A program made the position numbers and the translations under genes. A DNA stretch of 64,000 bases, from assembly GCA_019914945.1 (NCBI GenBank), contig CM034099.1:21540704-21604703 (forward strand). Direction: 5' to 3'. This document shows, one piece after another, positions 14,801 through 52,500 of the stretch (the first letter of the stretch is position 1; each line of letters opens with the position of its first letter). The notes below the pieces were generated by a model. The model was not told the origin of the DNA. It searched no databases and saw only the letters and a list, made by a program, of their open reading frames with translations. This DNA comes from Typha latifolia (taxonomy: Eukaryota > Streptophyta > Magnoliopsida > Poales > Typhaceae).

Positions 14801-17800
14801 TTTAGGAAAATGGGCAGCACATTTTAAAAAGAAAAAAGGAAGTGCATAAGAACTGACGTTGCCACCTTGAAGCATATTCTTACCCACATCTGGACAGGTT
14901 GGTGAAGATGAATTTCGGCAAGGTACTCCATCTCAGGGTCAACTCTGATCCACAGCAACGGTGAATCAGTGCTGCAAACAAATTAAAGAGACAAAATTTC
15001 AGATGTAGTTCAGAGGAAAGACAAAGTTTAGTAAGAAGTATATGAAACTGTGGATGAGACCCAGTGCGAATATCCTGAGTTGTAACAGCATCTGCATTAT
15101 CATCAGAGCCATCATGCTTCAACCCTTTCTTAGGCTTCTGGATGCGCTTTGCAGCAAGTTTGCAATGGCATTGTACTTCCAACAGTTGCCAACTTTCCCC
15201 AGCCATAGGCAGTATTGGATGATCGTACATCCCATCAAGTTCATGAACTCGTATGCTCATCATTCCTGGCCATCCAGCACCACCTTCTTGAATCTCGTTA
15301 TCAGGATTACTACCAGAAATGGAACCACCTTTTGCTGTGCAATCTCTCATTACAGCTAATTCAACCATATTTCTCCTTTTGTTATAGGAGATGCCCATCC
15401 TTGAAAACAAAAATGTAAAAGGTAGGTAGATAAGAGGAAGCAGACGAGAAAAAGAGATGGATGGAGAACGACCAGCTCGCCCATTTACCTCATGATAGGA
15501 CACCCACAAGATTCAACCCATCGAGGAAAGAATTCTTTAAGGAAAGGACGTTCCAGATTACCAACCTTATTGGCAAGGTGCCTGAACTGTATAGCAGGAA
15601 CAAACATATAACTGAATATTCTTTCATTGACATTTTGATTATTGAGGGAATACTATATTTAAGTAATAATATTATGGCAACATAGGCATCTTGATAAGAT
15701 TTAGGATCATCACAAGTGCTAAAATATAGTTGGTTTGCAAAAACTCTTTCAATAAAAAATGATATTTGATGTACTTACCCATACTTGGAGTTATAAAATT
15801 AGTCTGATCCTATTATCAGAATCAGCATACTACTCAAATCAGATTACTGTAGCAACAGTTCAAAAACTGAAATTTGATTAATCTGAGTTGACATGAAATT
15901 TGGCACGTCGATGTTTGGACGCATGGTGTTCTTTTTCAAATAAAATGCTATTATATATTTACATGTATTGCACACTATAGCCCACGTTAGTTTTGATCAT
16001 CTGTTCTCTCATCTATTTGGATGAAATTGCTGTTATGAAAAGCTTCAATTTGTTATCGTCATCGGACATGTTCAAACCATCATAACCAATTTCCATACAA
16101 CCTTTTATCATTTAAACCACTAACTTGTTCAAGACATAAAAAACTTTTATATCTATCAGTGGACACCCTCAACGACCCAACATCATAATCTCCATGATAC
16201 TCTTATAGAATTGGTAGGCACTCTTCCCCATGACTAAAGAGGTCATAAAATCAACTCCAATCTCAAAGCTTAGAAGAGCAACTCACCAAGCGTATCTCAG
16301 CGATTTTTAGTTCGAACTAAAAGTTAAACGACGGAGATGACTTGAACTCTAGACTAGGTGGCTTAGTATATGAGCTAAAGTTTAATGGGAAGTGCCTATG
16401 TATCCAGTTCATATCTAGCTTTCAAGCTATTGAATGATCAAAAAAAAAAAAAAACTGATCTCCATGATACTCAATTTTCACATATGTTTCTAGTTAAATA
16501 ACATTCCAATTCATAAAACAATAATCTCTTAGTTAGACAATAAAATTTTCCTTCTAGATAGGTAAACTGAATGATTAGTTGCTTACTTTAAAATGTTTGT
16601 TACCCAACGTAAATAAACAAATTATTTAATTAGATTACCAATTTACTATTAAAACTTTGCCAACTTAATGTTCCTTGCTTTTATCTTTTCCTGCTTTCAA
16701 AGTGATATACAATGTACGATATTGTTATTTTAAGCTCACCGCACTATGCTGATTTTGTTATTTTAAGTTCACCACACTATGCTAAAATCAGGGAAAACAA
16801 TAATGCCCATATACTAGACAAGCCTAAGCATTTCCTAGATAGGTCGCGAGAATTTTACACATTGAGCACCTTCAAGCATAGCAGAATTTTACTTTCCTAT
16901 TTTTGATGTTTCCCTTTTTCTCTTGGCAATCAAACAATAGTAAAACTCATCTCTTTTTCTGCATTTCCTCCTGCCAGCACAAGCATTTCTGAATTTATTT
17001 AATTAATAATGAGTGGATTTAAGGGTTGTACTTCAAAAGTTGAATATAAAATTATCGCCAAATTAACTTACAAGTCCACCTATATCAACTACTGTAGACA
17101 CCAACTATAAGTTCACAATAATATTACATGCAGAAGGTTTCACTTCAGTAAATGTCTTGTTGACTTGATCAAGTCAGATATAGTCTAACTTTGACACACA
17201 ACATTTCTTCTGAATAAGATTTTTGGGCACAGAGCAGTTAAATATTCTGCAGACAATATCTGTAAAACAATTAGTCAATCTTGGATGACAATAAAACTCG
17301 CCCCTTGATCCAAATTGCCATGAGTTTGAGTCATAGAAATAGCCTCTTCAATAATAAGGAAAAGCTTGTACACATGTTGCACTTCCCACACCCCCTGTGC
17401 ACTAGGACACCTTTTCTAGTAGTCAAATTTGTTGCTTCTCTATCACTGAATGAACATACAGGTACTACAAGCAATATAACACAACTACAAACCACATTTT
17501 TAAATTATTTAACACAATTAAAGTGCTATATCAAATGCTCGGGCACAACAGGTGATGCAAAGCACACGAGCAAGTGAACAAAAAAATTGTCTAAAACAAA
17601 GAAATTATGACTGCTATTATCACCAAATGAAAACTAGCACTTTCAGAAATAAAAAGCAGAAAAATAAATGGTCTAAAAAACACATTTTTAGAGTGCTATA
17701 TCAAATGCTCAGGCACAACAGGTGATGCAAAGCAGAAGAGCAAGTGAACTAAAAAATTGTCTAAAACAAAGAAATTAAGGCTGCTATTATCACCAAATGT

Positions 17801-31103: not shown

Positions 31104-31305
31104 ATGGGGAGGGGAAAGATTGTAATCAGGAGGATCGATAACTCGACGAGTAGGCAGGTGACCTTCTCGAAGAGGAGGAATGGGTTGCTAAAGAAGGCTA
31201 GAGAGCTTGCCATCCTTTGTGATGCCGAGGTCGGCCTCATGATCTTTTCCAGCACTGGTCGTCTCTATGATTTCACCAGCACCAGGTTCTTCTTCTTCTT
31301 CTTCT

Positions 31306-31337
<32 letters not shown>

Positions 31338-34300
31338 AGATGTTATGATGTGATTTATTTGGGTCAAGGATTTTGTTCGTTGAAGGTAATTAAAAGGTTC
31401 GAGCTTGGGAAAGTTTGTTGATGCTTAGTTCATGCATCTTTCTGACTTAAACTTAACTCGTGAAGCTACTGTTTGTGATTTGGATTTTCTTTTGGGCTTC
31501 TTTTTCTTTCTTTCTTTCTTTTGTTTCTTTTACTGCTCTCAGACATCGAGGTATATATTGTGAAAAGGGTTTGATTTGAAGAGGATACTGCGTTACTGTT
31601 ATGACGAAGACAACGTATGTCTTGGAGATTTTTGTTGTTGGTTTTGTTTTTTTTTAAATAAGATAATATGGAACAAATCTTGGCTTTGTCTCTTCTATTG
31701 TATTTTCCTCGTCTTTAACATCTAAACCATCTAAATATGATACTGGAGCTCATGATTAAGCATGAGTTAGGGGAAATAGTACGTGTTTAGTTAGAGTGTT
31801 AGGTAAAAAAGAAAAAGAAAAAGAAAAAGAAAAAGAATATATAAAAAGGACCTGATGGACTAGATTAGATCTACATATTTCTAACTGCAAGATCTAATCT
31901 TTCATAATTCCGTCGACATGAAGATATCTTTTGTCGTGTGGTAGGTCACTGCGAGAAATGAAGTTGCTATTCATTATAAACTAGAAATTAAAACAGTGTA
32001 AAGTTATCGTCGACTAAAGCCTTGCATTGACGACTATTGGATTTGTTGACAATTTATGAGGTAGCTAGCTTTCAGTATTCAAAGATGATGAGAGTTATTT
32101 CTATTATGACCACATTGAAAATGTCTTGAGTCGTTTCAAAAGCTTTATATATGGATAGACAACAAATGGAGTTCTTTTGATTCTTTTTGTCTTCATCTCC
32201 TCTCATGTCAGATAAATACTATACAAGGCTCTCTCAATGTTTGTGATTTATTATTTCCTACATTTGAATGAATACTCCAACTCTTATAATTTAAGAGAAT
32301 GACTTATGTTTAATTTATTGACAGCATGAGATCTGTGATAGAACGATACAACAAGGCAAAGGCGGAGCACCAGCTGAACATGAATGCTACTTCAGAGGTC
32401 AAGGTACTATATGGTCAAATATATCTTGTGATATCGATAACCGAGCTTATAACCGTAGGAAGTAGCTCAGGGCGCCATTCCCGTACCATTACTAGAGTCA
32501 AAACACTTGTGACATCAAAAAGTACTTAGCTCTAGTGACACAAAGCATGTGAAGAAATATAAAAACCCTAAAGAAAGAGCTGCAACCAACACCACTACAC
32601 TAGATATACATAGCTTTATCTAAAATCGGACTATGTCTACCGGCACAGGAGAATATTCTACATGTAAGTACGAGTGATCTCACTTTTGTACTATCATAGA
32701 CATACATAGTATGATTGTTAAAATAATCACAGTCTGCTCAAGTTCGGCTCCTTAAGACAAGATCAAGCTCGACTCGAATGGAATTGATTCAAGCTTGATC
32801 GAGGAATCATGCTCAAAATTATTTTTGAGTTGAGTTTGATCTTGAATCGGCTTGATCAACTTAGGCTTGATAAGACTTAAAATATTAACATTATACTATA
32901 TAAAGTCTCATAAATTCCTATAGTTATTACTCTAAGGTTAGAATGATTAGAAATTGGAACTAATATGGAGATATATGTTTGATTGAACCAAGGCTTATTT
33001 TAAGCTTGATCATGCTTGATTTAGGCTTAAATCAATTTAAGCTTGAAATTGCTTATTGATCGGCTCAATTAAGCTCGAGTCTAGCTCAAGATCGAAATTG
33101 CCTCGTATTGAAATTATTTTATTTCAAGCTTGATCCTAATTATTGGCCCAAAAGTATTTTTAATTTAAGCTTGATCAGAATTCGGCTTAATTAAACTCGA
33201 TTCTGTTATATTCTTATATACAATATGCCTAAAGGAAATTTTCTTGCTTACTATCTCTTAACCAAATTTGCTTCCGGAAGCTTAATTGGGGATCCTGAAC
33301 TAGCAAGAAAACCTAGAGAGAACATCTAAAATCTCTCTTCTCGACATTAATAAGAGAGAATAAAAAAGAAACCCTCTCTTGCCTATCAACCCTATTATAC
33401 ATTTGGGTTACTTATGCGCTCTTACATAGATATTTCACTTAACCCAAGCCACATGTGTTAAGTGTCTAAACCAATATAAATAACTCCATGACTTTATTGA
33501 ACCAACCTAAAAGAGTACTTCGTTAGATGGTGAGTTTGATATCACAAACTCAATTATCTCCACCTTGATAGCAAATTCACTATCTTCGTGCCACCTACAA
33601 TCTTTATCCTTGCTCACCTTGAAACCTAGATAAGTAAGGTGTCATTAACCTTCTCTTCTTATAAAGGCTTCATAAGCACCCACAACCCTTTCGATGAGAA
33701 TCAACGTCTTCCTATGTTATCATAGCTCTGTTGTTGCATGAATCTCTATTACTATTGCATTCCCAATAGCTTATATAAATTTCATACCTGGATAGCTTTC
33801 ATGTCGACCATTGCATTTTTTATATATCTTCAAACTCCACCTTGCTACGTGATCTCCTTGAAGTATCAACTCATTCTCTTGCATAACCTACACCATTCAA
33901 ACTCTCTTTAGTTGTCTTTTTTTCAGTGTTCATGCAAAGCAAATCTTCCTCGGTGCAAATTAGATTTATGACTAACTATCACAAATTTGTAACAATATGC
34001 ACAACAAAGTAATGGCTTTATCCTCATCGTCCATATCCACTTAACCATAGGAGAACTAGGAGTCTTATTTTATCTTTAAAAAGAACGACCTTCTCTTTAA
34101 GAAGACTCGGTTGGTAACCCTTAACATTTGGTACATGCTCTCTAGCTTTACCCATATGTTGAAGACTATCTTCTCCCCTAATGACTTCAAGGAGAACCTC
34201 CTCCGCTAAACACGAACGAATGCTAGACAATGTCTTCATATCTATTATATCCAATTCTTCAATAGTCATCTTCTACGCTATATTTCCTCTATTAGACATA

Positions 34301-37300
34301 GCCTTGTGTTGACTTTGTAGCACTAGTAGACCTTGTTCTTCTCATCAAATTTCTTCATCTTAAATTGACCTTTTGCCTTAAAAGGTATTTCATATCACTA
34401 TTAGAACCAAAATTCTTATAACATCAAAATACTTAGCTCTTGTAACACCCACCGCCAAGATGGGTGTTATGCAAGTATGTGAAGAAATATGAAATCCTAA
34501 GAGAAAAAACTACAAAGATAATAACAACACGAGTTACGCATGGTTCATCTGAAATCGTCCTGTGTCTATAGGCACGAAGAAAAAATATAACACCATCAAG
34601 AATATCATATACAAATAGAGAGATCTCGCTTCTCTATTATCACTAATATACAACATTCCGATAGGAATATTTCTTGCTTGACCCTCCCTTAAACAAATCC
34701 ACTTTCAGTACCCTAGTCATCTGAATATTTCTTGCTTGACCCTCCCTTAAACAAATCCACTTTCAGTACCCTAGTCATCACCTCCAACCAAGCTAGAAAC
34801 GTTGAACTAGTAAGAAGACCTAGAGAGCAAATTCTCAATCCTCTCTTCTCTACTCTAAGAAGAGAGAACAAGAGAGAAACCCTCTCTCGCCTACTAACCC
34901 TGCCATACATTTGGGAGGGCGACTGAAAGAGGTGTGTGACTAAGGAAATGAGAGAAAGAAGAAAGGTTCTTATATATACCTCTCACTTAACCCAAACCAC
35001 ACGAGTTAAGTGAATCTAAAATAACATAACTTACTCCATTAATTTATTAAAATAAACTGAATAAGTACTTGGTTTTGTTTGAATGGTAAATTTAATATAA
35101 CAAACCCAATAATAACTAGTAAGTTTTTATATTGTCGAAGTGTTCCTTATCACATGGCATGATACCAAGTCTTGACAAATTGCTGATTGTCGTACTACTG
35201 CCTCAGCTGCTGAATAAAGTTAGTCGAGTCTGCCCGATGCTCTTATAAGTATGACATCAGTACTTAGTTCTCTCTTTTTTTCGTTTTGACTGTGAAAGTA
35301 GCTTGCTATATGGTTTGACTCATGGAAAGATAGTGATAGAAGATATTTCACATAGAAAACGAGAGGACATACCATATGAAATGACATGTATCAATGTGCA
35401 TATTTTTATCTTTGACATATCATCTATCAGCATCTGAATATATGTTGGAGTACATTAGGAATTTACGAGGTTCTCTTTTTATTGGTCAAGTCAAGAAGCA
35501 ATTGAATCCAATGAACTTCATATGTTGCCAATCTGTTCATTAAAACTTGTGGTGTTGAAATTCATGTGCTTTTGCTCAAGTATTTTTGGGGGTAAAAATG
35601 AAAAAAAAAAATGGAGCAGGACGAAGAAGAAGGATACTACTGTTACTCTTTGAATGGAGCTAACTGATAAGGATGTTAATTTTCCATCTTCCACTTAAGC
35701 GTTTCCATCAAGTGAGGAAAAATGACACATAATAGAATTCATCATTTTCAGCTTTTAGTTCTTGCGAACCGTTCGAGTTGATTCTTTCTGACTTTCTCCT
35801 GAATAAAATAGGCTGTAGTAGTCTGACACAGATCTAGCAAAAGATGTAGGGCCTAGAGAGATGCCAATCTTTGTTTGTCGAACCTACAGGTGAGGAGAAT
35901 ATTCCATTGCTATTGGCCTAATATGAAAATGGCTGAACATTATATCGTGGAAGAGGGACACAACTTGGTTAGGGTTCGTTTATACGAGGAAAACAATGCT
36001 GTCCATAGAGAATTAGAGATGGCGTGAAAGAATCACTTCACTTCTCCACAGCTTCTCGAGTTTTGCAATGAGAGTCTAGCTTTTGATTTTGTTAAACGTG
36101 TTCATTTTGCCACACAAAAAGAAACTCTTTTAAACCAAAAGGACTTTAAACTCTCGTTTCTCGACAACTCTTTATTTAACTTTTTTTTTCATTTTTCTCC
36201 GCCCTTTCCTGTATTGATTTGATCAACCATAAAATTCCAACAAAACAACATAGCTTGGAATGCCGTATATTGATAGAAGACCAATATGTTGCATGCCTCC
36301 TGGCAAACAACCGACATCTCGTGCTCTCTAAATCATAGCTGATGTCTAGCGATATACTGGGTTTTAGACCATATACTTCTTACAAACATCTAGATTTTGA
36401 GCTGTGTTTAGAAGTGCAATAGCAGACAATTTATTCCTCTGACTATCAAATCTCAAGGGCTGCCATATTAGTGGAATAGGCGGGGTTAGTTTATCCACAG
36501 TCAATTCGTTTCGCTGTTAAATCTCAAGGATATAAAAGATAAATTACTGAATAAAAGTTACAGTCCACCTCTTTTATGTTACTATTTATCTTAGGACAAG
36601 GGAGAAAAAGTTTTTTTGCTTTTTGGTTTAGAATTGCCCACAGCCAGCCCCTTTGTCTCCTATTCCAAACTAAGCCTCAGGGTTTCGTGCCTCATTGTCA
36701 GCTCAGACAATCCTAGAAATCTTGAAACAGTTGCCTTAAGGCCAAAAGGTTTATCTATCAAGTTGAGATTCACATACGATTTCTGAAGAAATAGTGCTAA
36801 GCAGTAGGTATAGGACTCTAAAAGATATAGTAGGCTTTCATCCCTCCGTAATAATCTGTATACTCTAGTTAATCAATATTACTAGCAGGTCATTAAAGAG
36901 ACGCCAGTGGTACCTTCCATTTCATCGAAGAGTAGGATGTGTTGTTTGTTAGATGCATATAACTAGCTACACTTCTACATAATGCATAAGTTGCATTTCT
37001 CATTGGGCAACCATTCATATCGATGTCATTGAATACATGGATAAAATGGCGACGTAGCATGGACCAACAGATCCTGTCTATTTGAACTGCATATTTACCT
37101 CAGATAATTAACTTTAATACACTGAAAGTGAAAATAACAGATAGATCTACAATCAAAGGTTCAACAAAAACCTGATCAAGAATAAAAAGCAGACTCTAAA
37201 GTTCAAGCTAAATCAAACAATATGCTCACATATTCATCTGCAACAAAAATAAAGGGTACCAAAATCTACTTCTAATGAGAATATTGACTCGACACGAATT

Positions 37301-38066
37301 GAAGATAGCAGTGGGGCGAGCACCAGGAGCATTCACATTTTGGTCCACCAGTACATTATGTACCCGTCTAGACGAATGTGACCCAACTTCATATAAGAAC
37401 CTGTTTAACAAAACTTCTGAAGCAACTCACACTAGGTTAATCATTCAATTTATCGAGTCAGTACATGCAAAAATTAAACGGGCTAAATTCAAAGAAATGA
37501 TCACATAAATCACTTCATAGTGAAGTAATCCACCAATAGAAAAGAAGTCCAATTTATGAGGACAGGCATGTGATAGAAGTCAATTTAGAGCATGGGGGTC
37601 ATATAATGAAAGCTTAGTATTCAAATGAATTAATACAACGATGTAAATAATAAAAAGACTAGAGCTTAGTATTTGCAACTTATTGTCTCAATCCAAGTAT
37701 GTTATAGTCAACAGGAGTGTTTTCTTCTCTTCACATACACACACCATAGATCAAACTTCAATATTGTCGCATAATTTTGTATTTACATTGCCCCTACGTA
37801 CTACTCACTCCACCCAATCCGTGCGCGGCCATCACCTAGCCGAACGGAGCCAGCCAAGAGCAACTCTAGTGCTCTCAGCCTTCCCCTTAACTTATCTGGC
37901 TTCTCTAGTCCCTGGCCACCTTTCTCCTCACTTTCCACGAGGTTAGGGTTTATAAATATTATCAGTCCTTGAACTATTGAAGTAGTTTATTTAACAAAAT
38001 GAGGAGTCAAGTCATACTTAGGGTAGATAAAACTCTGACATGTCGCGGCACTTGCTGGCTGTGTCG

Positions 38067-38110
<44 letters not shown>

Positions 38111-41100
38111 GGGAGACTATTCACTTTCACCTTTCATCACTCGTCGTTGACGACCTCGCCGTCATTGCTCTTCACCACCTCATCGTTGTCCAAGCTAGAG
38201 GCGTCGCTCGCATCGGCGCCGTAGCTTAAGTTTTTATCCAAACCTGACAACCTGACCCATTTGCCCTTCTTCCTCCTCAAGCTAGGGCTCCGATGCGAGC
38301 AATGCCTCCAGCTTGGACGCCGACAAGATGGCGAAGAGCGAGGACGATGAGGTCGTCGAAGTGCGGGGATGGCGAGGTCGGTGAAGTGCGGCAACGACGA
38401 CGTCGGCAAAGTGCGGCGACAACGAGGTCGATGGGAGGAGAGGTGCCATGCGGCACCCCTCATGCCACATGCCGGTACGCTGCCGGCATGGCTATCGTTG
38501 CTATAATTATTGTGAAGCTGAAACTAACAAACCTACGTTTATAAAATTACAACATTTCTTTAATATTTCTAGTCTACTTTTCCCTTTGGGAATGCTGTGT
38601 GTAAAGAAATGTATTCTATTTGTTAGTTCATTTAGTTCAATTCCATCAGCTGACTAGTTTACTATATAAGTATATATGTCTATTTGATGTTCATACTAAT
38701 TCAATTAGAGCCTTCAGTCAAGCACAGCACTAGGATGCATATTGGGGCCGACCACCTTATTTTGATCCAATTGGGAAAGTTGTCTCAATTTGGAATACTT
38801 GTTGGCTTCTAATTTGGGTTGTAATAACTATTATACCATACACACTTCATATAGAGTAAATAAGATTTATTTCCAAATAGGATGGGTCATTATAGCCTAT
38901 TAACTATTAAAAGCACCTAAAGTCCCAAATAGAGAGGGCAGTCTCGGATCTTATTGCAGTTGTTCCGATTTCTGAAGTTCCTGCAACAAGATCACACCAT
39001 TTTATGCATGAAAGTGAAGAAGAGACGTGGTTTCATATGAACTGCATCGATCTATTAGGTGAGACCTAGATTTGTAACCTTCACAGAAACTACTCTAGTA
39101 AAAATTTCCTGCTTCCCTAAACATTGTACTGTAGAAAATTATCAATTTTCACTTTTCAAGTCCCTATTTCCTCTAATTGTCCCACTATTCAATCATAATA
39201 TTTTCCTAGCAGCAAAACATTAAACTTTAATGTAATCAGATTTGTTTTGTTGGATCTGGGTTTTAATTGACAAGTGACATGATCAGTTTATACATATTAC
39301 ATAGACTTTAACAGATAGTACATATGACTGACTTTCTTGTCTCTTAATTTATTAAATCACTACTTTGATCTTGTTTTCAACCTTATGTTCAATTATCATT
39401 TAGCAAACTTTTGGACTTTTAAGGTATATCTGTAGGCCTCTATCTTAAGCAGCAAGGGATGGAACAAAGAAGACTTTCTCCATATAGCAGAATTTCATAA
39501 TTTAAATCTTTAAATTTGTCTTTTCAAGCACCCTCAAAATAGCCTACTTTAGGACGCAAGAAGTAAAATAAAGAACCACACCATAATATTTTTGTTGTGA
39601 TACAGAGCCACAGACAGGTGAATATATCGGAGACTAAGCAAATAGCTACCTTATGCTACAGAGTAATATGTAACTACTTTAATAAGGTGAAGAAAACAAA
39701 AAATCAGAAACAAACAGACTTCTGATTTGTTATCACATAATTTCTTATGTGTAACAATGTAGTCTTAATGCTGTAGTCCTATAAAATCCTCTCTTTTTTA
39801 AGTACTTGCATGTAAACTCTATTTAGTTTGCATTTGGCAGCACATTTTTATTTCTCTAAGGTGACTTCATTCATGTTCAGATGATGCAAAAGTTATAACT
39901 ATTTCTTTATGTTACCACTAGTTCTGGCAAAGGGAGGCAGCAAGCTTGAGGCAGCAACTGCATAACTTGCAAGAAAATCACCGGTATGATCATCACTTGA
40001 GCCTACAAGAAATTCAAATAACATTAGTCTGCTAAACATTCAGTGCAGAAATAAGTAATGAGGCAACACAGTTATGGAAATTTTCACAACCACTAATTTC
40101 ATGACAGCATGAAATTAGAGGCAAGAATCCTGAATAACAACCAACAACTGATCATATTCATACTTCAAAAGTAAACTATAATATGACTCAAAGTTTTATA
40201 AACTAAGAGAAAAGGTTTATCCTAATTAACATAGCTCCTCAAGAGTTTTCTTTTTTGAAACTGAGAATCATGCTTATGATAACACTTGCAATTGACCAAC
40301 AAATTGCAAAGCTTCGTGCGTGTCATGGAACCTTAAGGCGCTCATTAAATAAATTATCTGCCTTGTGAGATAAAAATAAGAAATATCATGCGCGACATGA
40401 GTAATATTGTAAAATATCAGCTGCATTCATCATTCAAAATATTGTCCTACAAGCTAAGATATTTTCATATATTTGTTTCCTAATTGATTAATATTCAATA
40501 ACATAAACTGCCAATTTTTATAGCTGTATAGTATATTGTTTCCCATTCAAAAATGGGGTATGCAGTCATCATATAAGACACCAGAAATGTTCATCGACAC
40601 CCTAACCTGTTCTGCTTTCTTCCTACTGAACAGCTGAAAAAAAAGGAAGGATATACAATATTTCTTAATAGCTCTTGCATGCCTAGATTTACTAAAATTT
40701 CAGTCAGTTCAAACATTATAGAGACTATCTATAGGATTTGTCTTAAATGTGTTTATAGTTAAAAAAAAACTCAGTCGAGAGCTTTTTGCAAGACTAGAAT
40801 GCTACATCATAAAAGTCAGACAACAATCATTAACACCTACACCGCAGATACCAACCAAGGTATAAGTATAACAGACCACTTCATAAGGACATAATATGAC
40901 ACATCTTTGACAATCCTGGCAGGCAGTTGATGGGAGAAGAGCTTTCTGGCCTAAATGTGAAGGATCTTCAGAATTTAGAGAACCAGCTAGAAATGAGTCT
41001 ACGTGGTGTGCGAATGAAGAAGGTTCTATTACGCTTTAGTTCTTCTGCCACTGTGTTTTTTTTAAAGATTACTGATGCAGTTGAATTTCAATTGCAGGAC

Positions 41101-41598
41101 AAAATTTTGATCGATGAAATTCAAGAATTAAATCAGAAGGTTCGTCAACTTATTTTATCCTCCATCTCTTATTTTAAGTCATAGGTTTGCTGCATGTGAG
41201 TTGCCTAATTACGTTTGGTTTCATCACAGGGAAGCCTTATTCACCAAGAGAACATGGAACTCTACAAGAAGTTAAACATTGTTCGTCAAGAAAACATGGA
41301 ATTATATAAAAAGGTAATTGATCAAATTCAAACATATTTCAAACCTAACAGAAATGTTAGCAAACAAATAAAATTTAAAAAAAATTATAATGTGAAATCA
41401 TAGTTGAATACAAGTTAACCAATGAATTCTGGATGTCAGATTTATGAAACAAGAGATGTAAATGAATTCCAGAGAGGTTCAGTTATCCCAGGCAATTTTA
41501 GCATCCCGGATGATGCAAATGTTCCTGTTCATCTGGAACTAAGCCAGCCACAACAACAAATAGATGGAGTGCAATCAGGAGTTCCAAAACTAGGGTAA
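31104..41598 (+). CDS. MIKC-type MADS-box transcription factor, AGL17/ANR1 clade (MADS23/27-like)
   Basis: Exons: 31104-31285, 32325-32403, 39922-39983, 40923-41022, 41098-41139, 41230-41313, 41440-41598 (708 nt, 235 aa). Lengths 182, 79, 62, 100, 42 and 84 nt are typical of MIKC genes. MADS domain residues 1-60 open [20 protein letters not shown] and contain [20 protein letters not shown]. The I region has [14 protein letters not shown], and the K domain has [36 protein letters not shown] and a doubled QENMELYKK. These mark the AGL17 clade (rice MADS23/25/27/57, Arabidopsis ANR1), tied to nitrate response, root growth and tillering. Exon 3 carries a perfect miR444 site. Intron 2 is 7.5 kb and holds a copia remnant. 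The frame ends KLG-TAA at 41596-41598, whereas family members usually end KLGLQL. A donor (AGG|GTAACT) overlaps that stop, so a short final exon may exist. AATAAA at 41836-41841 could end this form. Confidence 0.9.
32730..33200. repeat. AGCTCG-type element nested in the left copia LTR
   Basis: The tract is missing from the right LTR copy. It consists of words such as gctcaagttcggctc, aagctcgactcg and cttgatcggctcaatt, the vocabulary of the family at 8374-9093 and 60970-62066. It must have inserted after the copia element. Confidence 0.5.
34665..34780. repeat. 58-bp perfect tandem duplication inside the right LTR
   Basis: The segment beginning gaatatttcttgcttgaccc at 34665 recurs at 34723. 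Both copies read through to ctagtcatc without visible differences, so the duplication is recent compared with the LTR divergence. Confidence 0.8.
38030..38505. mobile_element. Foldback, GA-repeat-bearing element related to 61434-61792
   Basis: The segment has a (GA)n run at 38070-38107. Two inverted arms follow, about 38188-38217 (ccaagctagaggcg and ctcgcatcgg) and 38289-38317 (ccgatgcgagc and cctccagcttgg). The right end reads gccggcatggctatcgttg, whose reverse complement matches the left terminus of the element at 61434 at 16 of 19 positions. The left limit is uncertain. It lies in MADS intron 2. Confidence 0.5.
39937..39957 (-). ncRNA. miR444: Mature miR444 / miR444 target site on the opposite strand
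   Basis: Minus strand 39957 to 39937 starts TTGCTGCCTCAAGCTTGCTG and ends C, identical over 21 nt to a known rice miR444 isoform. A second known isoform, starting TGCAGTTGCTGCC, fits minus 39962-39942. On the plus strand the same bases lie in MADS exon 3 and encode EAASLRQQ, so the MADS mRNA is a perfectly complementary target and cleavage would fall in the K-domain start. Confidence 0.92.
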
Positions 41599-44500
41599 CT
41601 TTCTTTCTGAACTTCAAAAATTGTATTGACTTTCAGTTTACAAGTTAGATAATAGAATACTCATAAACATGCAGCAGACTTCAATTGCACTGAGAAGACA
41701 CATGAATGAAGGATGGCTCTCTATGAACTTCCATTGATATTATTTTAAGGGCTAGGTATGCTACTAGTAGAAACATTTTCTGTATAAGGCATGAATAACT
41801 GCAAGACACATCACTGTGCAAAGATAACATGTTGCAATAAAACAGCAAAGATTATTCAATATATTTCAATTTAGTATTTTTCAGATAAATTATATTTGCT
41901 AATACAAATGACCACGTGGAAAAAGATTGCTGATTAACTCGCTAAGGCCATAACCAGAAATTTGAATGATCAGAAAAAGGAAGGATTAGTTCTTAGGCTT
42001 TAATAAAAGGCAACCAAATAATAGAAATCTCACTAGTAATATCATAACAATTTGCCATGAGTTAGAAATCATCTGTAAGATGCATTTCAAGATGTTAATA
42101 CATGCGCCCTGGATAAGTATTTCAATCACAAACAAGCAAAGAATTTGTCATCTGTAATATGCTAAAATACGCATAGGAGTCGGCCAAAAAAAAAATATCA
42201 TCATTTTCCATGAGGGGATTACATTTTATGGAAGAACATAAGAGTCTGGGAGGGTCCTATACTAATTCGGCAATTAGATTTTGCGGTTGCCTCTGGTCGC
42301 CCAACGTGTCTTGAAATTAGCATGTCCATCAGCACTAAAGCAATAGACCACACAATCACATATCCATCCATCAATCTCATATTCTCATGGTGACTAAATA
42401 TAATTTTTTAGTGCTCTAGACATATACGACCTTCCTTATATTTCTTAGGCATATGAAAAGAAGTGGCGATAGAAATTTCTTGCAAAATTTAGAACCATTT
42501 TCCTTGCTACCCACATAAAACACAAAACATCCTGCCGGAAGTAGAGCCAGCTTAATGTGTCAGCCATTAGGCAGTTGCTGGTAACTTGGTGGCTTTATAG
42601 CCAAGATATAGCAGATAGAAGAAGAGTCAAAAGAGAAATTGAGAGGATAAGAAAATCATTAGAATAAGAATACATGTTTACAACTCAAGGACCCTGACGA
42701 TCAATTGAGATCTCCTCTGTATTATAGGGGAGAAGGCTACTCACAAGGGTAGGTCGAGTAACAACACAATATATAGTGATTGGACAGGAATTTTCTCGAG
42801 TTCTCCATTATTTTCCACGTATAATATGCACCAAAAAAAAATATGAATCTCTAGATCTCATAATTGCTAGGAGTGCATAGATACTCGGGATATGGTAGAA
42901 AGAAACTGCGTTGTTCTATAAAAACTGGAGCCTTTGAGCCCTGTCAGAAATTTGCGTGAACACCCAAGCTCATGTAGGTTTGAACTTCGAGTCCCTGACA
43001 AAGGCTAATTTCATATAGATCAATCACAAGTTCAATAGTACAAAAATAAACTGCTTTCCTATAAAAGAATGACTACACTTATATAGTATCATGAAATGCA
43101 AAACATTTCCATTATTAATGTCGAACATACTTCTTTTAAATTTCTTTTAAAAAGTAACCGTGAATATGGAGAGATTCTTTTAAACTTAAATTTCTAATGT
43201 TTGTTTTACCTTGGAATACACTTAAAAAGGTAGATATAAACTTCAAAATTTAAATCATAATGAAACCACGAATAATCTGGAAGAGACTTGCACTTTAAAT
43301 AAGGCAAATACTTATCCCATGTAAGACCTCAAGAAATAGTCAGAAAAGGAAGAGGTATCAGCACTCCCAATAAGCATCTGAAGTTTTAGTCACTATATGA
43401 CGACTGATGCAAATTAAGACAATTAATCTGCTGCAATTAATGGCGTTTAAAAAGCAAGGAACGTGACAGACATGTCAGACTAAAAGGAAGATGCAGGGCT
43501 AATTGTTGATTGTAGTGGCAGATAGGCAAGATATGGTTTAGGTAGCAAAGCTAATAGACATGTAACTAAGACCTAAAATGTACAAGAATTCATAGCATGT
43601 ACATCTTTACACAAACTCTAGACAACCATGTAAATAACTGTTACATTGCACAGGCTATGAATTCTCCTTATTTGGAGAAATGTGTTATGCTTTTAATTTT
43701 AAATCAGTTCCACCATCTAAGAATGCCAATTCCATATCAGTTTGAGAACAAAGATAGGTGGACAATATCTTGCTCATCAGATCAAGCCACAGGATATAGG
43801 AAATCAGATCAAATTTGTCAAGTTACATGCGTTGGGATAAGTGTAATGATTAGCATCAACTGTGTAACCATTACACTATCATCCGTTATTTGAGAGGACA
43901 ACACGACAGATGACGATAGTAGGGCTAACATTGTTCCTCCATCTTGGTCAAAACATTGTTCCACTATCTAGAGTATCCACTGCCAGCTCCATGACGAGGG
44001 GGGAGATGGAGACTACATAATGTGCCACTCATGCCGTCATTGTCACCGTCGCCCTCAATGCCGCTCTCGCCGTCCATCTCATTGATCTACTACTTAAGTT
44101 AAATCTGCTTTATGGATCCTTTTTATTTTGACCCGTTTAGACATCGTCTTCTTTCAATGCTGGGACACGAGCGAAGGCGAGAGGGACAGCGGAATAACGA
44201 TGAGGGCAATGGCAATGGTGATGGCAATGATAGACTCCACCATTAATTGCCTCTACAATAGGGGTGAAAACGGGTCGAATTAACTCCGATCCGACCCGCT
44301 ATCCGACCCGATTCGGATCGGATTCGGATACGGATTCAGATATCCATTTATCCGCATATTTTTTTGAATGATTTACAGTTTTATTTTGCTTATTTAAATA
44401 GTAAATATTAATATTGTTACTAATAATATATTATATATTATTTATAGAGATTAATTTCTCTAATTTTACATATTTGACGTACAAAAAATTTATTTGTTGT

Positions 44501-45809
44501 AAAACTCTTAATATTTTTGTGTTAATTATATTTAAATAAAATATTATATTTTTTTTAAAATTCAATCAATATCCATTTAAGATCCGATTCTCTATCCGAA
44601 AATTATCCGTATTCATTTAATTAGGATATGGTTTTAAATTTTGTTATCCGTTCAATATCCGTAACCGGACTAAAAATATGAATCCAGATATGGGTTAAGC
44701 ACTATCCGATCCATTTTCACCCTTACTCTACAAGCCTATTCACAACTATCTGTATGAGCCGAAAGAAGAGCTGCCATGTGCAACCCTCGATTTGTACTTC
44801 ATCATTATGTAGTATTTCAATTATTTTAAAATAGTTTTGTAATGGTAAAATGGCAAAGTGGTAGTGAACATAGAAGGCACATCAACATAAAACTTATCAA
44901 AAAGCTTCTTTAGTATGCACTAATTGATAATACACTAGTAACAAGCTCAATTTCTTCATCCAATTCTTCCTCTGCCTCTTCTCCCATTTCACTGATCAAC
45001 CCCCCCCAACCCCCCCCCTCAATCCTAGTTCTGCAAATGTCGTCAAACTGCAATATCATAAGTATCTAAATTACAATTCAATGCCCTAAAATGAATGCTA
45101 ATTTGCAGGTTCCATGTATATGATCCACACATAAAATTGATCCTTCTTGGACCTATTTTTCAAAACTTTACAATTCTCCACAGAATCATGCTTATCTCAT
45201 ACTCTAGGACTTTTTGTTTAAGTGAAGTTAATTGATTCTCTAAACTAATGGGCGATCTTGATAGCCAATTTTTAAAATATCATTATTCATATGAGAGCAT
45301 CAGAATAACTTTATCATATGAGATGTTCTCTTCACACCTGGCTTTTCAATGTATTCACATTGTGATCCAATTATTCTTGCTATTTGGAGACCTATTTGCT
45401 ACGCAAGCCCTCGAATAACATGAAAGCAAAAAATGTTGCTTCTATCTTTAGTAGAACAGGAAAAGATAAGTCATAAAACATGTCTTCTTAGTTCATCAGG
45501 AACAGCAACACTTGGAATAGGAGAATGAAAGGCTAATCCCTAGAAATTACTGGGTTTATACTTTATGTGCACTCTAATAATGAGAATGCTAGCATAAAGA
45601 AATAAAAAGTTTAAATAAAGTAGACAACGAAGTACAGCAATATTGGCAATAGAAAACAACACAGTGGGAAGTTAAATAGTAACTCATAAAATACGTCCAA
45701 CATACTACTTAGGACAGCATACTTATCGAATTATTCTCATATATCAGAAACAATGGTTGTATGTATAATACCTCATTATTACATATTTAGGCTTCAAAAA
45801 AGATCTAAC
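41599..45809. other. Region between the MADS 3' end and the inverted exon copy
   Basis: AT-rich DNA with no coding exon recognised. It would be the large intron of the antisense miR444 transcript. It contains the MITE at 44259-44725 and a low-complexity C-rich run at about 45000-45020. Confidence 0.5.
44259..44725. mobile_element. 467-bp MITE with perfect 8-bp target duplication
   Basis: CTCTACAA flanks both sides (44251-44258 and 44726-44733). The left end is TAGGGGTGAAAACGG and the reverse complement of the right end is TAAGGGTGAAAATGG (13/15). The subterminal zones are built of ccgatccgacccg and ggattcggat words, and the centre is AT-rich with no frame. An 8-bp duplication points to hAT-type mobilisation. 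It sits in the presumed intron of the antisense miR444 transcript. Confidence 0.85.
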
Positions 45810-45871
45810 TTGCGAATTTCTTGCAAGACATGCAGTTGCCACCTCGAGCTTGCTGCCACCACATGCAACAA
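45810..45871 (-). ncRNA. Inverted duplicate of MADS exon 3: miR444* arm exon
   Basis: Read on the minus strand, this 62-nt block follows TTTACTAG and is followed by GTTAGATC. It matches MADS exon 3 at 47 of 62 positions, including a run GGCAGCAAGCT and a run CTTGCAAGAAA. Length and both splice dinucleotides are the same as in the MADS exon. It has no place in the MADS reading frame, being on the other strand, and most likely serves as the 5' arm of the miR444 hairpin. Confidence 0.8.
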
Positions 45872-45881
45872 CTAGTAAACA

Positions 45882-46240
45882 CAATTCAAAAGTCAGCTCA
45901 TGCAGGATATAATGCCTACAGTATTATGCTCAGTATGTTTACGAAAAGAAAAGGGTTAAGCCATTTTTTATACAATTCAAAAGTCAGCTCATGCAGGATA
46001 TAATGCCTACAGTTTTATGCTCAGTATGTTTACGAAAAGAAAAGGGTTAAGCCATTTTTTATACAATTCAAAAGTCAGCTCATGCAGGATATACTGCCTA
46101 CAATTTTATGCTCAGTATGTTTATGAAAAGAAAAGGGTTAAGCCATTTTTTTATACAATTCCAAAGTCAGCTCATGCAGGATATAATGCCTACAGTTTAT
46201 GCTCAGTATGTTTACGAAAAGACAAGGGTTAAGCCATTTT
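45882..46240. repeat. Four tandem copies of a 91-bp repeat beside the miR444* exon
   Basis: The word caattcaaaagtcagctc (or a one-base variant) starts copies at 45882, 45973, 46064 and 46156, giving periods of 91, 91 and 92 bp. The first copy ends 11 bp from the inverted exon. On the minus strand each copy contains GAGCTGACTTTTGAATTG, which includes a plant branch-point-like CTGAC. Confidence 0.88.
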
Positions 46241-47497
46241 TTACATGAATATTCCATCACTTCAAAGGAAAAAAATGCTATACAAAGCAGCTTAAAACAT
46301 TAACACACATAATAGATATATTATGAAAATTAGCAACTCCTTATATATGAAATCGTTACATTGGGTTTCAAATTATCGAATGAAGGCAAAAAGAATAAAA
46401 TTATCTATCATGCAATTCACTCTCCCAATCAGGCCCCCTATCATTTTGTTTGGAATGCATTAATCTTACACATAACTCTTACTGCAGTTTCTGACAATAT
46501 GTAGATGCATTGTGTAAGAAAAAGATGGAGAAATTTATTTAGCATGATAAAATATCGGAAGAATGAATGGAGCAACTCTTAGTTATAAACTGAGAACGGA
46601 CAGTTCATGCCCATGTAATCTGAAGGATAAAATCTGGCTTCCATCCAAGGTACTTACAATAAAGAAAGAAATTCACAGTACAAAATTTGCCTAAGAATTA
46701 CTACAGGATATAATTTTTTTTAAATTTGCTGGGTTAGACTATGTTTGACTTGGGTCATGTTCAGCGTTGGTAAATTTCTATAACCACAGATAGAGAGAAA
46801 CAAGAAATAACAGCAAAACATAAGATAAAACAAAGTGAGTGCTCACCTAAAATCCTATATTCATATCGCAACAGCCCATCACAACTCCACACATAATTCA
46901 AAAGTCTAGCAGATCATAGAAGGTATTGATCAGCAATTTCTGGCACTAAAATAAAAGACTCGCCTTTAATATCTATTAGTTTCAACATCAACAATATCTG
47001 TTCTAGGAGATCTCCATATATATCTCCAAAACAACAGCTAACATTTGTCAAAACTGGCATAAAGGAAATAAGGCTTGAGACAGACATTGGTCCGAGCAAT
47101 CAAAGTTTTTGAAGCTGGTTGCCTTCATGCTAACCATACATCTCCACTAGTAAAATCTAGCCTAATCCGGAAGAAGACATACAAAGACTACACAATCTAT
47201 GATGTGCTACTCAGTTAACATCTACAATACAAACATCTGTACAATAATGTAAAATCTTTCGGAGAACTATGAAGCCGAATAAAAACAAACCGCATCCCAA
47301 AAGAAAAACAATTGGAATAAAAAAAAAGCCACCGAAAATGCACATTAAACAAGAAAAGAAGAAGTTCAGATATAAACCTAAAACAGATGGAGAATGCGGT
47401 AATATTTCTAAAACCAAGAAACCATAATCAACCAAACTAACAGATGATGAAAGATACACAATGGCTGAACTCTTGATGAGTTAAAAAGTTTTCTTAC

Positions 47498-47900
47498 CTG
47501 AAATCGCCTCGCGTGTCCTGCCGCCGACTCAGAACGTACAAGAAACAAATCATACCCACAATAAGAAACGATCAAGCAAAGATAAGTACGCAAGATCGCG
47601 TGGTACGTGGCTAATCTCACGTCAATAAAGAAGGAAAACGATTGACAAATCGAAAGCAAGAAAAGAGAACGGAAAGTAACAAAGGATTCAAGCCGGATCT
47701 GATCTAAGAAACACGGACAACGAGAGAATTCTAATCTCGACTTCTAAATTGCAACAGAGAGAAAGAGAGAGAGAGCATAAGAGCAGTAGAACCCAAAATA
47801 TCTTGGATTGAATAGTTCCAAGAGGAATTAAAAAATGGCGAAGAGGAGAGGTTGATCTCCACCCACGTCTCCAACCTAATTTTAAATTCCTCGAGGTTCC
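47498..47900 (-). promoter_or_regulatory. Leader-like first exon and promoter of a minus-strand transcript
   Basis: On the minus strand the block has a TATA-like GGTTATAGAAAAGG near 47938-47951, then a C/T-rich leader with CTCTCTCTCTCTCTTTCTC (about 47760-47780), then AG|GTAAGA at 47498. This is the usual shape of a plant 5' UTR exon. No conserved frame is present. It is the nearest upstream candidate for the start of the miR444 primary transcript. Confidence 0.5.
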
Positions 47901-47949
47901 AAAAGGAGAAGGGCCGAAAAAAGAATTGGGAACCCTTTTCTATAACCGC

Positions 47950-49530
47950 GAGGACCGGTATGATGTACGAAAGGACTAGTTTAAAGTAGTTTTAACATGT
48001 ACTACACCGGGCGACGGGGGACGCGTTCGCTTTATCGGGAAGAATAAGTAACTCTTGTTGAATACGTGTCGGGCTTTAAACTGATTAATCCGAGTTGACC
48101 TGAGCTTTTCCTACTAAGAGGCAACGTGGCACGGTGACGACGGTCGTGATGGTGATGAGCGGTGGATGATTCCCCTCGGTTGGACGTTTCCTTCTCGATT
48201 GCTATCTTGACCCGCGGTACACCGTACACGGAGGAAGTGAAGGAGGGTTTGCTGGTCCCCCTTCGGCCCTCCCAACTTTTTTATTTTTGGATTTTTTTTT
48301 TTAAAAAAAAAGAGAAGGTCCATATTGCCCTCCCTACCAACTGAAGTGGCTCGTGATGAATGTAACGGTTAATTAACTCCCACTTGGAAGGAAGGTGTCT
48401 CCTTTACATGGAAGGAAGGTAAGCTCGTGGGAATCTTCGCAGGTGAAGGTTGATGGTATTGGATGGCCACTTGGGGCAAAGATAAATCTATCAAAATTAT
48501 CTCGTACCATATAATTGTCCTTTAATCCATGTGGGTTGTGGGGTTTTTTAAGATCTCTTTAATTATCTCATTATCTGTCGATTGATTGATTGAAACTAGT
48601 TTCAAACTTAACGTAAAATATTAAATTTGAGTCTATTTCAAGCACGAGCGACTTTGAACGACTTGATACAAAAGATTTAAACATATTTCAAGTCAAGCTT
48701 AATTCAAAGCTCGAACAAATTTGAATTTAATCTTAAATGATCTATATTTAATAATATTAAATTAGACATATAACCAAATTAAAATGTATTTATTACTTAT
48801 TATATATATATATATATATATTAATAAATTTTAATCGAGTCTTATTAAGTTGAGCTTAATTGAACTAAGTTTGTGATCAAGGTTGGATTAAAATTAATTT
48901 TGAGCCTAATCTAATTAATCATGCTTGACTCATAAAAGACGAGCTTGAGCCTGCTTGATTATTTTGACAGCTCTAGTTACCTATTAGCTCGAGCTGGCTT
49001 GATTATTTTGACAGCTCTAATTACCTATTAGCTATTGTTAGATGGTAGTATATTGCAATATGCACATCGTGGAGAATACTGCAATATAATCAAAAGATTT
49101 TGATTTGGAGGAAGAACTTAGGAACCTGTTAGATAAACTTTCTTCCATCAAAGATAAGGGGACTGGATCCTATTTTGATATTTCAATAAGTTGTAACTAT
49201 TCAACAACAATCAAAATGCCCTTCTAAATTTAGTGAAGAACCTTTAACAATCTGCTACAACCATATATGCTTCTAGTTTTTTAGGTAACCTGGTATGGCC
49301 TGAGATTCATTCAACAACTCAAAGAGATAACTAGCTTGAATTTCCCTCTGCTTCTTTGAGAAAATAAATTCCCACTTGCAGCTAGTTATCTAAACTACAA
49401 CCAAGCAATAATGACACAAATGTACAGGCAGACGTAGATGAGAAACAAAACTACCATCTGCTGATATGATACAACATAAAAAATTAAAAAATTAACATTA
49501 TGCTAGCTTTTTATAGAATTCTTTCGGTTT
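47950..49530. other. Spacer between the miR444 promoter and the kinase gene
   Basis: No exon recognised. It holds an AGCTTG-type element remnant (about 48590-49020) and an AT run at 48800-48821. Confidence 0.5.
48590..49020. mobile_element. AGCTTG-type element remnant with a duplicated end
   Basis: The right end reads cttgattattttgacagctcta, the family terminus also seen at 62066 (cttgattattttgacagccc). That terminus is present twice, 44 bp apart (48953 and 48997), with ttacctattagct after each. The left end (near 48598) is too decayed to define. Confidence 0.5.
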
Positions 49531-52500
49531 TCAATGCGAAGATGATCCTCGGCTTCTCCCAGTATTCGTGCTTGAGGTGGAAATAGTGTTGTTGGCATAG
49601 GAGGAAGAAGCCTGGGCAGAGGAGAAAGAGGCATGAGCAGAAGAGGAAGAGGCATGAGCATTGGAGGTGGTGGAGGTGTCCGTATTGCCTGAAGATGATC
49701 CCATAGAGTAGTGGGAACCACGCTGTTCGTAAGCTCTTCTCCGGTACCTCGAACCGGGGATTCCTGGCCTACTGGGCTCCTCTAGTGTGCTGGGCTTTTT
49801 TGACAAGATAACCACCACTCTCTTCATGTCTGGACGCATCTTCGGATCAGCTTGAGTGCAAAGAAGCCCAATGTGCACACACATCGCAACTTGCTCTGGA
49901 ACTGCAGTTGACCTAAGTGCAGAATCCATCATGTCCAGAGTCTGGCCCTTCTTGTAGAGCTTCCAAGCCTGTGACATGATTCCATTGAATTAGGCTTGAA
50001 AGAAATGTTGGATATATTACTAGTTAATAAATTATAACGGGGTTCCAGGAACAATAACAGGGAAGAATGCTGGACTGCATAGTCTAATGACCAAGAAAAT
50101 TAAAACAGCAGGAAAAACTGGAGAGGCAGATAGATATATGCTAGATATATACGAAAAATGACTATATGGTAGTTGTGGAGCTTACTGTTATTCTTTCATA
50201 TGCAATCAAAATTTTAGAATAGCATGTGTACTCTTTCAGTAAAGTGTAAATGATATTTCAGCTCTTGTAGGCATAGTTGGCTGTTCATATTTGGCAGCAA
50301 ATTAATTAATATTGTGCAATATACTATTTTCTTAATTAATTAGGTGCATGTGTTTATCTTTAGATGCAAAACTGCATTTTTAAACCTGATTAATCAATGT
50401 CAAATCCTCACAATTTTCTCAAAAACATCTAACTGACTTATTTGAAAGGAACTAATTGTGGTGTTTGATGCAAATGCACCTTTATTCGGTTGGAATCGTA
50501 AAACTGGTGTTGCCTGTACTTAGAAGATATCAAGCAACTAATTTTAAGCTATTTGTTGTGCTAACCTGATTCTAACTATTTGTTCCTATCAACATTATGA
50601 TAGAAATACTTTTAAGCACCCATACATTTATAAAGCATCAGTTACTTTAACAAATGGCCCGCTGAGTGAAAAAAGAACACTATTATATAAATTGCTCCAA
50701 TGAACAGAATATCCGTACTGATATAGGAGAGTAGCAGATAAAAAAACACCGGTGAGAGGCCAAATGTAGTCTATAGCTTTGTTCATGTACAACTTGAGCT
50801 TGAGCTAGTAGGTTTGAAACAGACTGTTAGAATTCTACCAACTTCAGCTTGAGCTAGCTTCAAGTCCTAAAAGTTCTGTCCTCAAGACTTCTACCAACTT
50901 CAGTTTTTTCATGGCTTAACACAGGGTTTAGTGTCCTAAGAAGGGGTGTATAGCCATTTCCAATAAAGATTTTTTGAGAATCGAAATAAACAAAATGCCG
51001 TCCATGATATGTTTGAGTTTAGGTGTTTGAAATGTTCTCAAAAAGGTTGTTGTGTTAATGGCTTGCCGAATTAAAGGGGAGAAATAGACAAGTTAACATG
51101 ATTTCAGATGACTTATAGCAGTCCGAAACTATTAATTGTTGAGACTCGAGAGCATAAATTTGATATTTTCAAATGAACTGAGGAACCATCTCAAGTAGTG
51201 GCTATAATTGATTATCTAAGTATGCACCCATTGACCACATTTTCATCTAAAGGCCCATCTCTACATAGGATGTCACCAATCATCAATAGAAATACTAAAA
51301 TACTCTTTGTCTACCTAGAACTCAACAAAGCAGAATTCCCGGTTACAATTATTATAGGAAAGAAAGAATCAAATTCAAGAAGATGATACCCGTAGTTGAA
51401 CCTTCAAGCATTTCGAACAATTGAAGTAAAGCAAGGCAATAGAAAGGTCATAACTCCTATAGGCAGAAGAGTAACAGAGTCGGAAAAAGACTTACCCATT
51501 CGAGGAGGCTTAGGGCGTCAGTGTCCGGGGGCGGCATGAAGGAGGAGTTCTTGCAGCCGGAGACGACCTCGAGGAGGAGGACGCCAAAGCTGAACACGTC
51601 AGCTTTGGTGGAGAGCGACCCGTGCATGAGGTACTCAGGGGCCATGTAGCCGTTGGTCCCGGCGATGCGGGTTTGAACGTGGGTCTGCTCCTCCGGGAAG
51701 AGCCGGGCCATCCCGAAGTCGGCGATCTTCGGAACCCACTTCTCGTCCAATAGGATGTTGCTGGCCTTGATGTCCCGGTGGATGATGGGCGTATGCGCGT
51801 CCTCGTGCAGGTACAACAGTCCCCGCGCCACCCCGACGATTACGTCGTACCTCCGACGCCAGTCCAACTCAGCACGCCTCGCACTCGATCCTCCTGCTGC
51901 CACGTGTACCACAGGATAATCAGACGAAAGTACGGTATCTGACGTCATCATTACAGATCATCTACGCAACAATTACCCGCGTTATTTCGTGATGTGAGCA
52001 CGGAACTGTAGGATGAGGACTTGATCTATATACGTGACCTCATTTGATTGATGCGGCAAGAGTAACCCAAGAATTATTCTAATTTACAGACGAGGAAGTC
52101 TAAGTCCAATTTTACTCGCGACTCGTGTAGGGTCCTGTACTCGTCACTCGATGGGAAGTTATGTGGGAGAGAGAGAGAGACAGAAAGCAACGGTGGAGAT
52201 AAAGCGAGATTCCTCCGTTGGAACACGGGAAAGCCCCACGTTAGACATGCATAATATCTGTACTACTGGACACGCCGTTCTGACCACTCCTTTTACTCTA
52301 TAAATATGCAGTTATGTCAACTTCAAGTGTGAAACGAAATATTATTATAAAAATTAGTCGTTTAACCTAACGCCCATCTGTAATCCAAATAGACTACCGA
52401 CGCAGGTGTCAACGTGGCACATACGGATTGGAACGACGCAGCATATGTCGAACCAACATAGATCACCGAACAAAATATAATTTCAACTGTGTGGTAGAAG

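Follow-up and report, generated by a model that had tools for sequence, protein, structure and literature searches.

A probable natural-antisense microRNA gene of the MIR444 family that overlaps its MADS-box target, with a hairpin predicted to form only after splicing

We analyzed a 64,000-nucleotide (nt) stretch of DNA from the Typha latifolia assembly GCA_019914945.1 (the window; contig CM034099.1, forward strand, 21,540,704 to 21,604,703; positions below count from its first nucleotide). Judged from its sequence, the window very probably carries a MIR444 natural-antisense microRNA (nat-miRNA) gene that overlaps its own MADS-box target. The arrangement itself is already known (the rice MIR444 family and nat-miRNAs are reportedly the subject of Lu et al. 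2008), and this locus adds another member to the MIR444 nat-miRNAs. In the model we favor, an RNA polymerase II transcript would start near 47.8 kb on the minus strand, its star-arm exon (45871-45810) would be spliced to the exon lying opposite MADS exon 3 to give a long stem, and DCL1 would release miR444.1 and miR444.2 from that stem. These would direct cleavage of the MADS mRNA encoded at this very locus; two paralogous MADS mRNAs would be guided to cleavage too, though less perfectly. Feature coordinates are collected in Table 1.

The original prediction had placed miR444, together with an isoform shifted by 5 nt, on the minus strand of MADS exon 3. Both isoforms are there, each identical to the rice sequence that PMC2292181 (Sunkar et al. 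2008) prints for miR444 or miR444e; the 5-nt shift is described in that paper as well. Target sites for miR444.1 with up to three mismatches occurred twice in the window, whereas 100 shuffled versions of it averaged 0.00. Across the genome, the 21-nt site was found at seven places at the same tolerance, and a control pattern read backward was found at two. The seven comprise MADS exon 3, two exons on C4 with one mismatch each (4.82 and 15.58 Mb), the local star arm and three others.

The exon belongs to a MIKC-type MADS-box gene. Spliced at GT/AG, its coding exons (31104-31285, 32325-32403, 39922-39983, 40923-41022, 41098-41139, 41230-41313, 41440-41594 and 41675-41693) yield a single open frame, whose product matches the Pfam K-box (E 1e-28) and SRF-TF (E 6e-25) domains; we take the gene to belong to the AGL17/ANR1 (OsMADS23/27/57) clade. 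Exon 3 is bounded by the acceptor CCACTAG and the donor GTATGA. Sequence position and gene model thus both place the microRNA sequence on the strand opposite a MIKC MADS exon.

An inverted copy of this exon at 45871-45810 had also been predicted, and it proved to be a copy of the whole exon. The inverted pair 39917-40005 / 45788-45876 aligns over 89 nt without gaps and is 74% complementary. Read on the minus strand, 45871-45810 has TTTACTAG just before it and GTTAGA just after it. These line up with the acceptor and donor of exon 3, an exon with which the copy shares 47 of 62 positions. An origin by chance or in a transposon-borne repeat unrelated to MIR444 is extremely improbable, even though other inverted repeats do lie nearby, such as the 82-nt arms in 38149-38357: the pair has an E of 1.9e-13 within the window, the copy has precisely the extent of one exon and is found again next to a C4 paralog, and among the 127,868 62-nt segments in the window just 374 have AG and GT at their borders in this way.

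Splicing in silico supports the claim that the two arms would form a hairpin once joined in a minus-strand transcript. The putative antisense acceptor is TTTCTTGTAG/GC, with the exon starting at 40002; an alternative, TCAAG/TG, would start it at 39995. Joined at 40002 or 39995, the arms fold into a stem of about -80 kcal/mol (z-scores of -9.3 and -10.7, with shuffle means of -41 to -44), and the 40002 form gave a z of -10.5 with another shuffling program. The predicted stem is near-perfect, carries the microRNA in its 3' arm and pairs 20 of 21 bases of each isoform. Unspliced controls gave z-scores of -2.7 (141 nt, microRNA side) and +1.0 (140 nt, star side); relative to these, the stem-loop appears in silico only after splicing. 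The intron of about 5.8 kb foreseen between the arms likewise has predicted ends, at 45809 and 40003.

Two paralogous loci on C4 allow the model to be compared across copies. Calling the window locus A, paralog B (15.58 Mb) has its target exon at C4:15584349-15584410 and a star exon at C4:15580652-15580713, 3,635 nt apart; its star arm is likewise 62 nt long, lying between CTACTAG and GTTAAC. In this genome we thus found one exact MIR444 locus and one variant locus with a star arm. A search of the genome with the star exon and its flanks matched only the star exon itself; it missed the known star exon of B and is therefore too insensitive for counting star arms or for claiming that there are none elsewhere.

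We compared window positions 28-56 kb with 30 kb around B, accepting E up to 0.01. MADS exons and their edges matched, as did the star exon; the remaining matches were cross-matches between star arm and exon and two rows from a short tandem repeat (44310-44338). Besides the MADS exons with their edges and that repeat, the star exon (45806-45877, E 1e-10) is the sole conserved block. The start of MADS intron 3 is also conserved between A and B, with z-scores of 6.7, 7.5 and 9.0 over 20, 40 and 60 nt (reached by 0 of 500 shuffles in each case). The antisense exon is expected to begin in this stretch, next to its acceptor AG. The same lengths gave far lower values between A and C (1.7, 2.5 and 1.5). 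The two other intron flanks compared between A and B gave z 0.2-1.6 (start of intron 1) and 2.0-2.3 (end of intron 2). Around the star exon, conservation is lacking downstream (z -1.6 to 0.7) and partial on the upstream, acceptor side (z 2.3-4.4).

This pattern bears on whether the locus makes small interfering RNAs (siRNAs) and not a microRNA, either as cis-nat-siRNAs from sense/antisense pairing over the 62-nt exon or from a stem diced by DCL3 or DCL4. The predicted sense and antisense transcripts do overlap at exon 3, and the length and near-perfect pairing of the spliced A stem would suit such dicing. Nat-siRNAs would have no need of a star exon, yet two paralogs have kept this exon, whose flank was lost on the downstream side and kept only partly on the upstream side; the exact rice miR444 isoforms are conserved as well. 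We therefore regard an siRNA locus as very unlikely.

Paralog C (C4, 4.82 Mb) keeps the miR444 target site, and no inverted arm was detected in the 30 kb searched around it, of which about 21 kb lie beyond exon 3 on the downstream side. The queries were the three exon arms and star arm A, with star arm B not used, and matches other than those to exon 3 had E of at least 0.11. The absence of a detectable star arm in C, along with a weaker hairpin in B (-57.2 and -53.0, z -5.0), means that loss may happen in the MIR444 family. Locus A could accordingly be a relic, an inverted exon duplicate that was once a MIR444 gene and is no longer transcribed here. We find this very unlikely: the A stem still pairs nearly every microRNA base, as given above, and both splice dinucleotides have been kept together with the conserved acceptor region.

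For a nat-miRNA gene, target and regulator were originally argued to be unable to drift apart, since one double-stranded locus would encode both. In cis this stands, as the match to a locus's own mRNA is perfect by construction. It fails in trans, where two paralogous exons have one mismatch each to miR444.1 of A: C opposite A at position 10 for the B mRNA, and A opposite C at position 12 for the C mRNA. miR444.2 of A has one mismatch to the B mRNA, at position 15, and two mismatches plus one G-U pair to the C mRNA. Read as a microRNA, the B sequence meets the A mRNA with one G-U pair only. Because of these cross-target mismatches among A, B and C, we conclude that matching is locked in cis and has drifted in trans. 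Nor does the argument extend to the star arm, where 15 of 62 positions are not those of the exon.

The star arms of A and B also differ from each other at 15 of 62 positions (47 identical), against five for the coding exon. At stem position 42 the change is compensatory, the pair being U-A in A and C-G in both B and the Rfam consensus. A GCAA end is common to all three star arms, which is no more than suggestive of a common origin. Position 59 (G vs A) is the sole fixed difference between star and exon within positions 13-62. Star-arm identity with the Rfam consensus is by itself no proof of one origin, since in grasses the star consensus agrees better with the exon (44/50) than it does with star A (40/50).

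Rfam searches across the window gave no matches at the gathering threshold, as expected for a hairpin split by an intron. We also searched the genome with RF00920 at E up to 10 (51 scored of 32,627 candidates), which gave six matches. Partial matches fell at the three target exons, with 58.5, 48.1 and 39.0 bits (E 2e-9, 1e-6 and 2e-4), and in an ungapped placement the RF00920 consensus continues into the GTATGAT of the MADS intron. One match lay away from the MADS paralogs, at C2:1112069-1112140 on the minus strand (23.0 bits, E 2.5); it is most likely a chance match, because control genomes match at a similar level.

Several results weigh against a functional MIR444 gene. The best RF00920 score on unspliced DNA, 58.5 bits, does not reach the gathering score of 110. 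At the star arms the matches are weak, with 28.4 bits (E 0.11) locally and 21.4 bits (E 6.4) overlapping that of B; because 7 of the 14 control genomes give RF00920 matches too at this E limit, neither these nor the C2 match carry weight on their own. The B stem is degraded, with 15 and 16 of 21 microRNA bases paired. Just outside the 62 nt, the likeness between star arm and exon is modest (z 2.0-3.3 over flanks of 10-40 nt). The star-exon donor, CAA/GTTAGA (CAA/GTTAAC in B), is not a strong consensus. Star-arm changes show no clear excess of those that keep a wobble pair (5 of 15 in A, 7 of 23 in B).

With these points considered, a MIR444 gene remains our preferred reading, and the structure of the copy suggests how it arose. 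Most likely, MADS exon 3 was duplicated in inverted orientation together with its acceptor and donor, and the copy became the star exon. The split hairpin may thus have inherited its splice sites from its target, since the second arm copies the whole 62-nt exon, with AG and GT at matching places. Such a duplication would explain why the hairpin forms only after splicing. This offers a concrete origin for an intron-split hairpin, namely a reversed target exon with its splice sites kept. A non-grass Typha host would mean that MIR444 predates the grasses. We lean slightly toward a fuller history in which MIR444 was born once, before the grasses, through this duplication, acceptor and donor included; the reversed copy of exon 3 would still be spliced, hairpin and splice sites alike being inherited from the target. 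The system would already have been duplicated in an early-diverging lineage of the Poales, leaving one paralog with a divergent MIR444 and another with the target site only.

The layout had been described as known for rice miR444, and the literature agrees: PMC2292181 reports new rice family members antisense to coding genes, with a fold-back that requires the processed transcript. Locus A resembles these in its identical mature sequences, the 5-nt shift, its position antisense to a coding gene and a fold-back from the processed transcript only. It differs in its probable non-grass host, in having one exact and one variant star-arm locus, and in a star exon that is an inverted full copy of exon 3 with splice dinucleotides. 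Barley MIR444c, mapped by rapid amplification of cDNA ends (RACE) in PMC9511987, has the star in exon 2, the microRNA in exon 3 and an overlap of about 60 nt with HvMADS27. The layout predicted here is the same, whereas the barley gene has RACE, small-RNA and degradome support; HvMADS27 is reported with seven exons, compared with eight coding exons here.

According to PMC11706861, no intron-split stem-loop was on record outside the miR444 family until miRtop14 of the Solanaceae. miRtop14 likewise has an intron between its 5p and 3p arms, but it targets LPR and belongs to a eudicot family, and we saw no statement that it is antisense to its target. The inverted-duplication origin of MIRNA genes, the model of Allen et al. 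2004 as described in PMC5383695, also derives hairpin arms from the target gene. Unlike in that model, one arm here is still the target exon, and the other is a nearby reversed copy that is itself predicted to be an exon. Among the published accounts surveyed in part, we did not find an exact-exon inverted copy with retained splice dinucleotides, which Lu et al. 2008 may describe.

If the host is indeed Typha, the locus argues against the view in PMC3017846 that nat-miRNAs seem restricted to grasses and that their pathway is less than 50 million years old. The self-targeting arrangement would then probably extend to an early-diverging lineage of the Poales. The main text of a T. angustifolia small-RNA paper (PMC4414455) contains no miR444, "444" appearing once, inside a read count. 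PMC6232160, a paper that came up for miR444 and Typha, concerns Arundo donax, a grass. Among the papers listed in searches for miR444 outside the grasses, a part of all those matching, we met it in grasses only; this is a weak test, as papers may qualify without that word.

The first exon of the antisense gene is placed more tentatively. Block 47834-47869 matches the region upstream of the star exon of B (E 3e-4; best reversed control, 0.15), and position 47500 is the sole CAGGTAAG on the minus strand in 45872-49500. We call this exon tentative because a longer MAFFT alignment did not align the block. Barley is reportedly the source of a PEP444c peptide; when frames were compared by eye for a similar small conserved peptide, we saw none shared.

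Table 1. Features of the predicted MIR444 locus and its MADS-box host, in window positions.
Feature	Positions	Strand	Remarks
MIKC-type MADS-box gene	31104..41693	+	SRF-TF and K-box; 8 coding exons; 240 amino acids
MADS exon 3, 62 nt (agTTCTGG...TCACCGgt)	39922..39983	+	miR444 target site; opposite strand would form the 3' arm of the MIR444 hairpin
Mature miR444.1, exact, UUGCUGCCUCAAGCUUGCUGC	39937..39957	-	0 mismatches
Mature miR444.2 (rice miR444e), exact, UGCAGUUGCUGCCUCAAGCUU	39942..39962	-	0 mismatches; shifted 5 nt from miR444.1
5' end of predicted MIR444 exon 3 and acceptor, in MADS intron 3	39984..40043	-	Conserved with paralog B
Predicted MIR444 intron between arms	40003..45809	-	5,807 nt if the acceptor at 40002 is used; both ends carry splice signals
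Predicted MIR444 star-arm exon, inverted 62-nt copy of MADS exon 3	45810..45871	-	AG before, GT after
91-bp tandem array	45881..46243		4.0 copies, 95% matches (Tandem Repeats Finder)
Tentative MIR444 promoter-proximal region / exon 1	47498..47869	-	Weak; ends at CAG/GTAAGA donor

The 91-bp array begins 10 nt beyond the star exon, in predicted MIR444 intron 1, and reaches the predicted acceptor tract of that exon. A comparison with the 30 kb surrounding paralog B (E up to 0.01) showed no match to it, tandem repeats not having been searched for in B itself. The inverted repeat at 38149-38357 lies in MADS intron 2; its arms are 80% complementary and 45 nt apart, it overlaps a 25-nt tandem repeat, and it may be an element resembling a miniature inverted-repeat transposable element.

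Upstream of the predicted MIR444 start and on the same strand is a protein kinase exon (Pfam Pkinase; 51457-51957, minus strand). The frame 49531-49989 (minus strand) has no Pfam match and by eye resembles the C-terminal part of this kinase. Farther away, at 14880-15512 (minus strand), is an exon with a TAF2 immunoglobulin-like domain (Pfam PF25316). To our knowledge, grass plastids lack ycf1, and its insertion into this genome is among the grounds for regarding the host as probably Typha or a close relative and not a grass. In the chromosome-scale contigs of this assembly, plastid ycf1 fragments gave 16 matches (best 224 bits), some open and some with stops, compared with 0 in the 14 control genomes.

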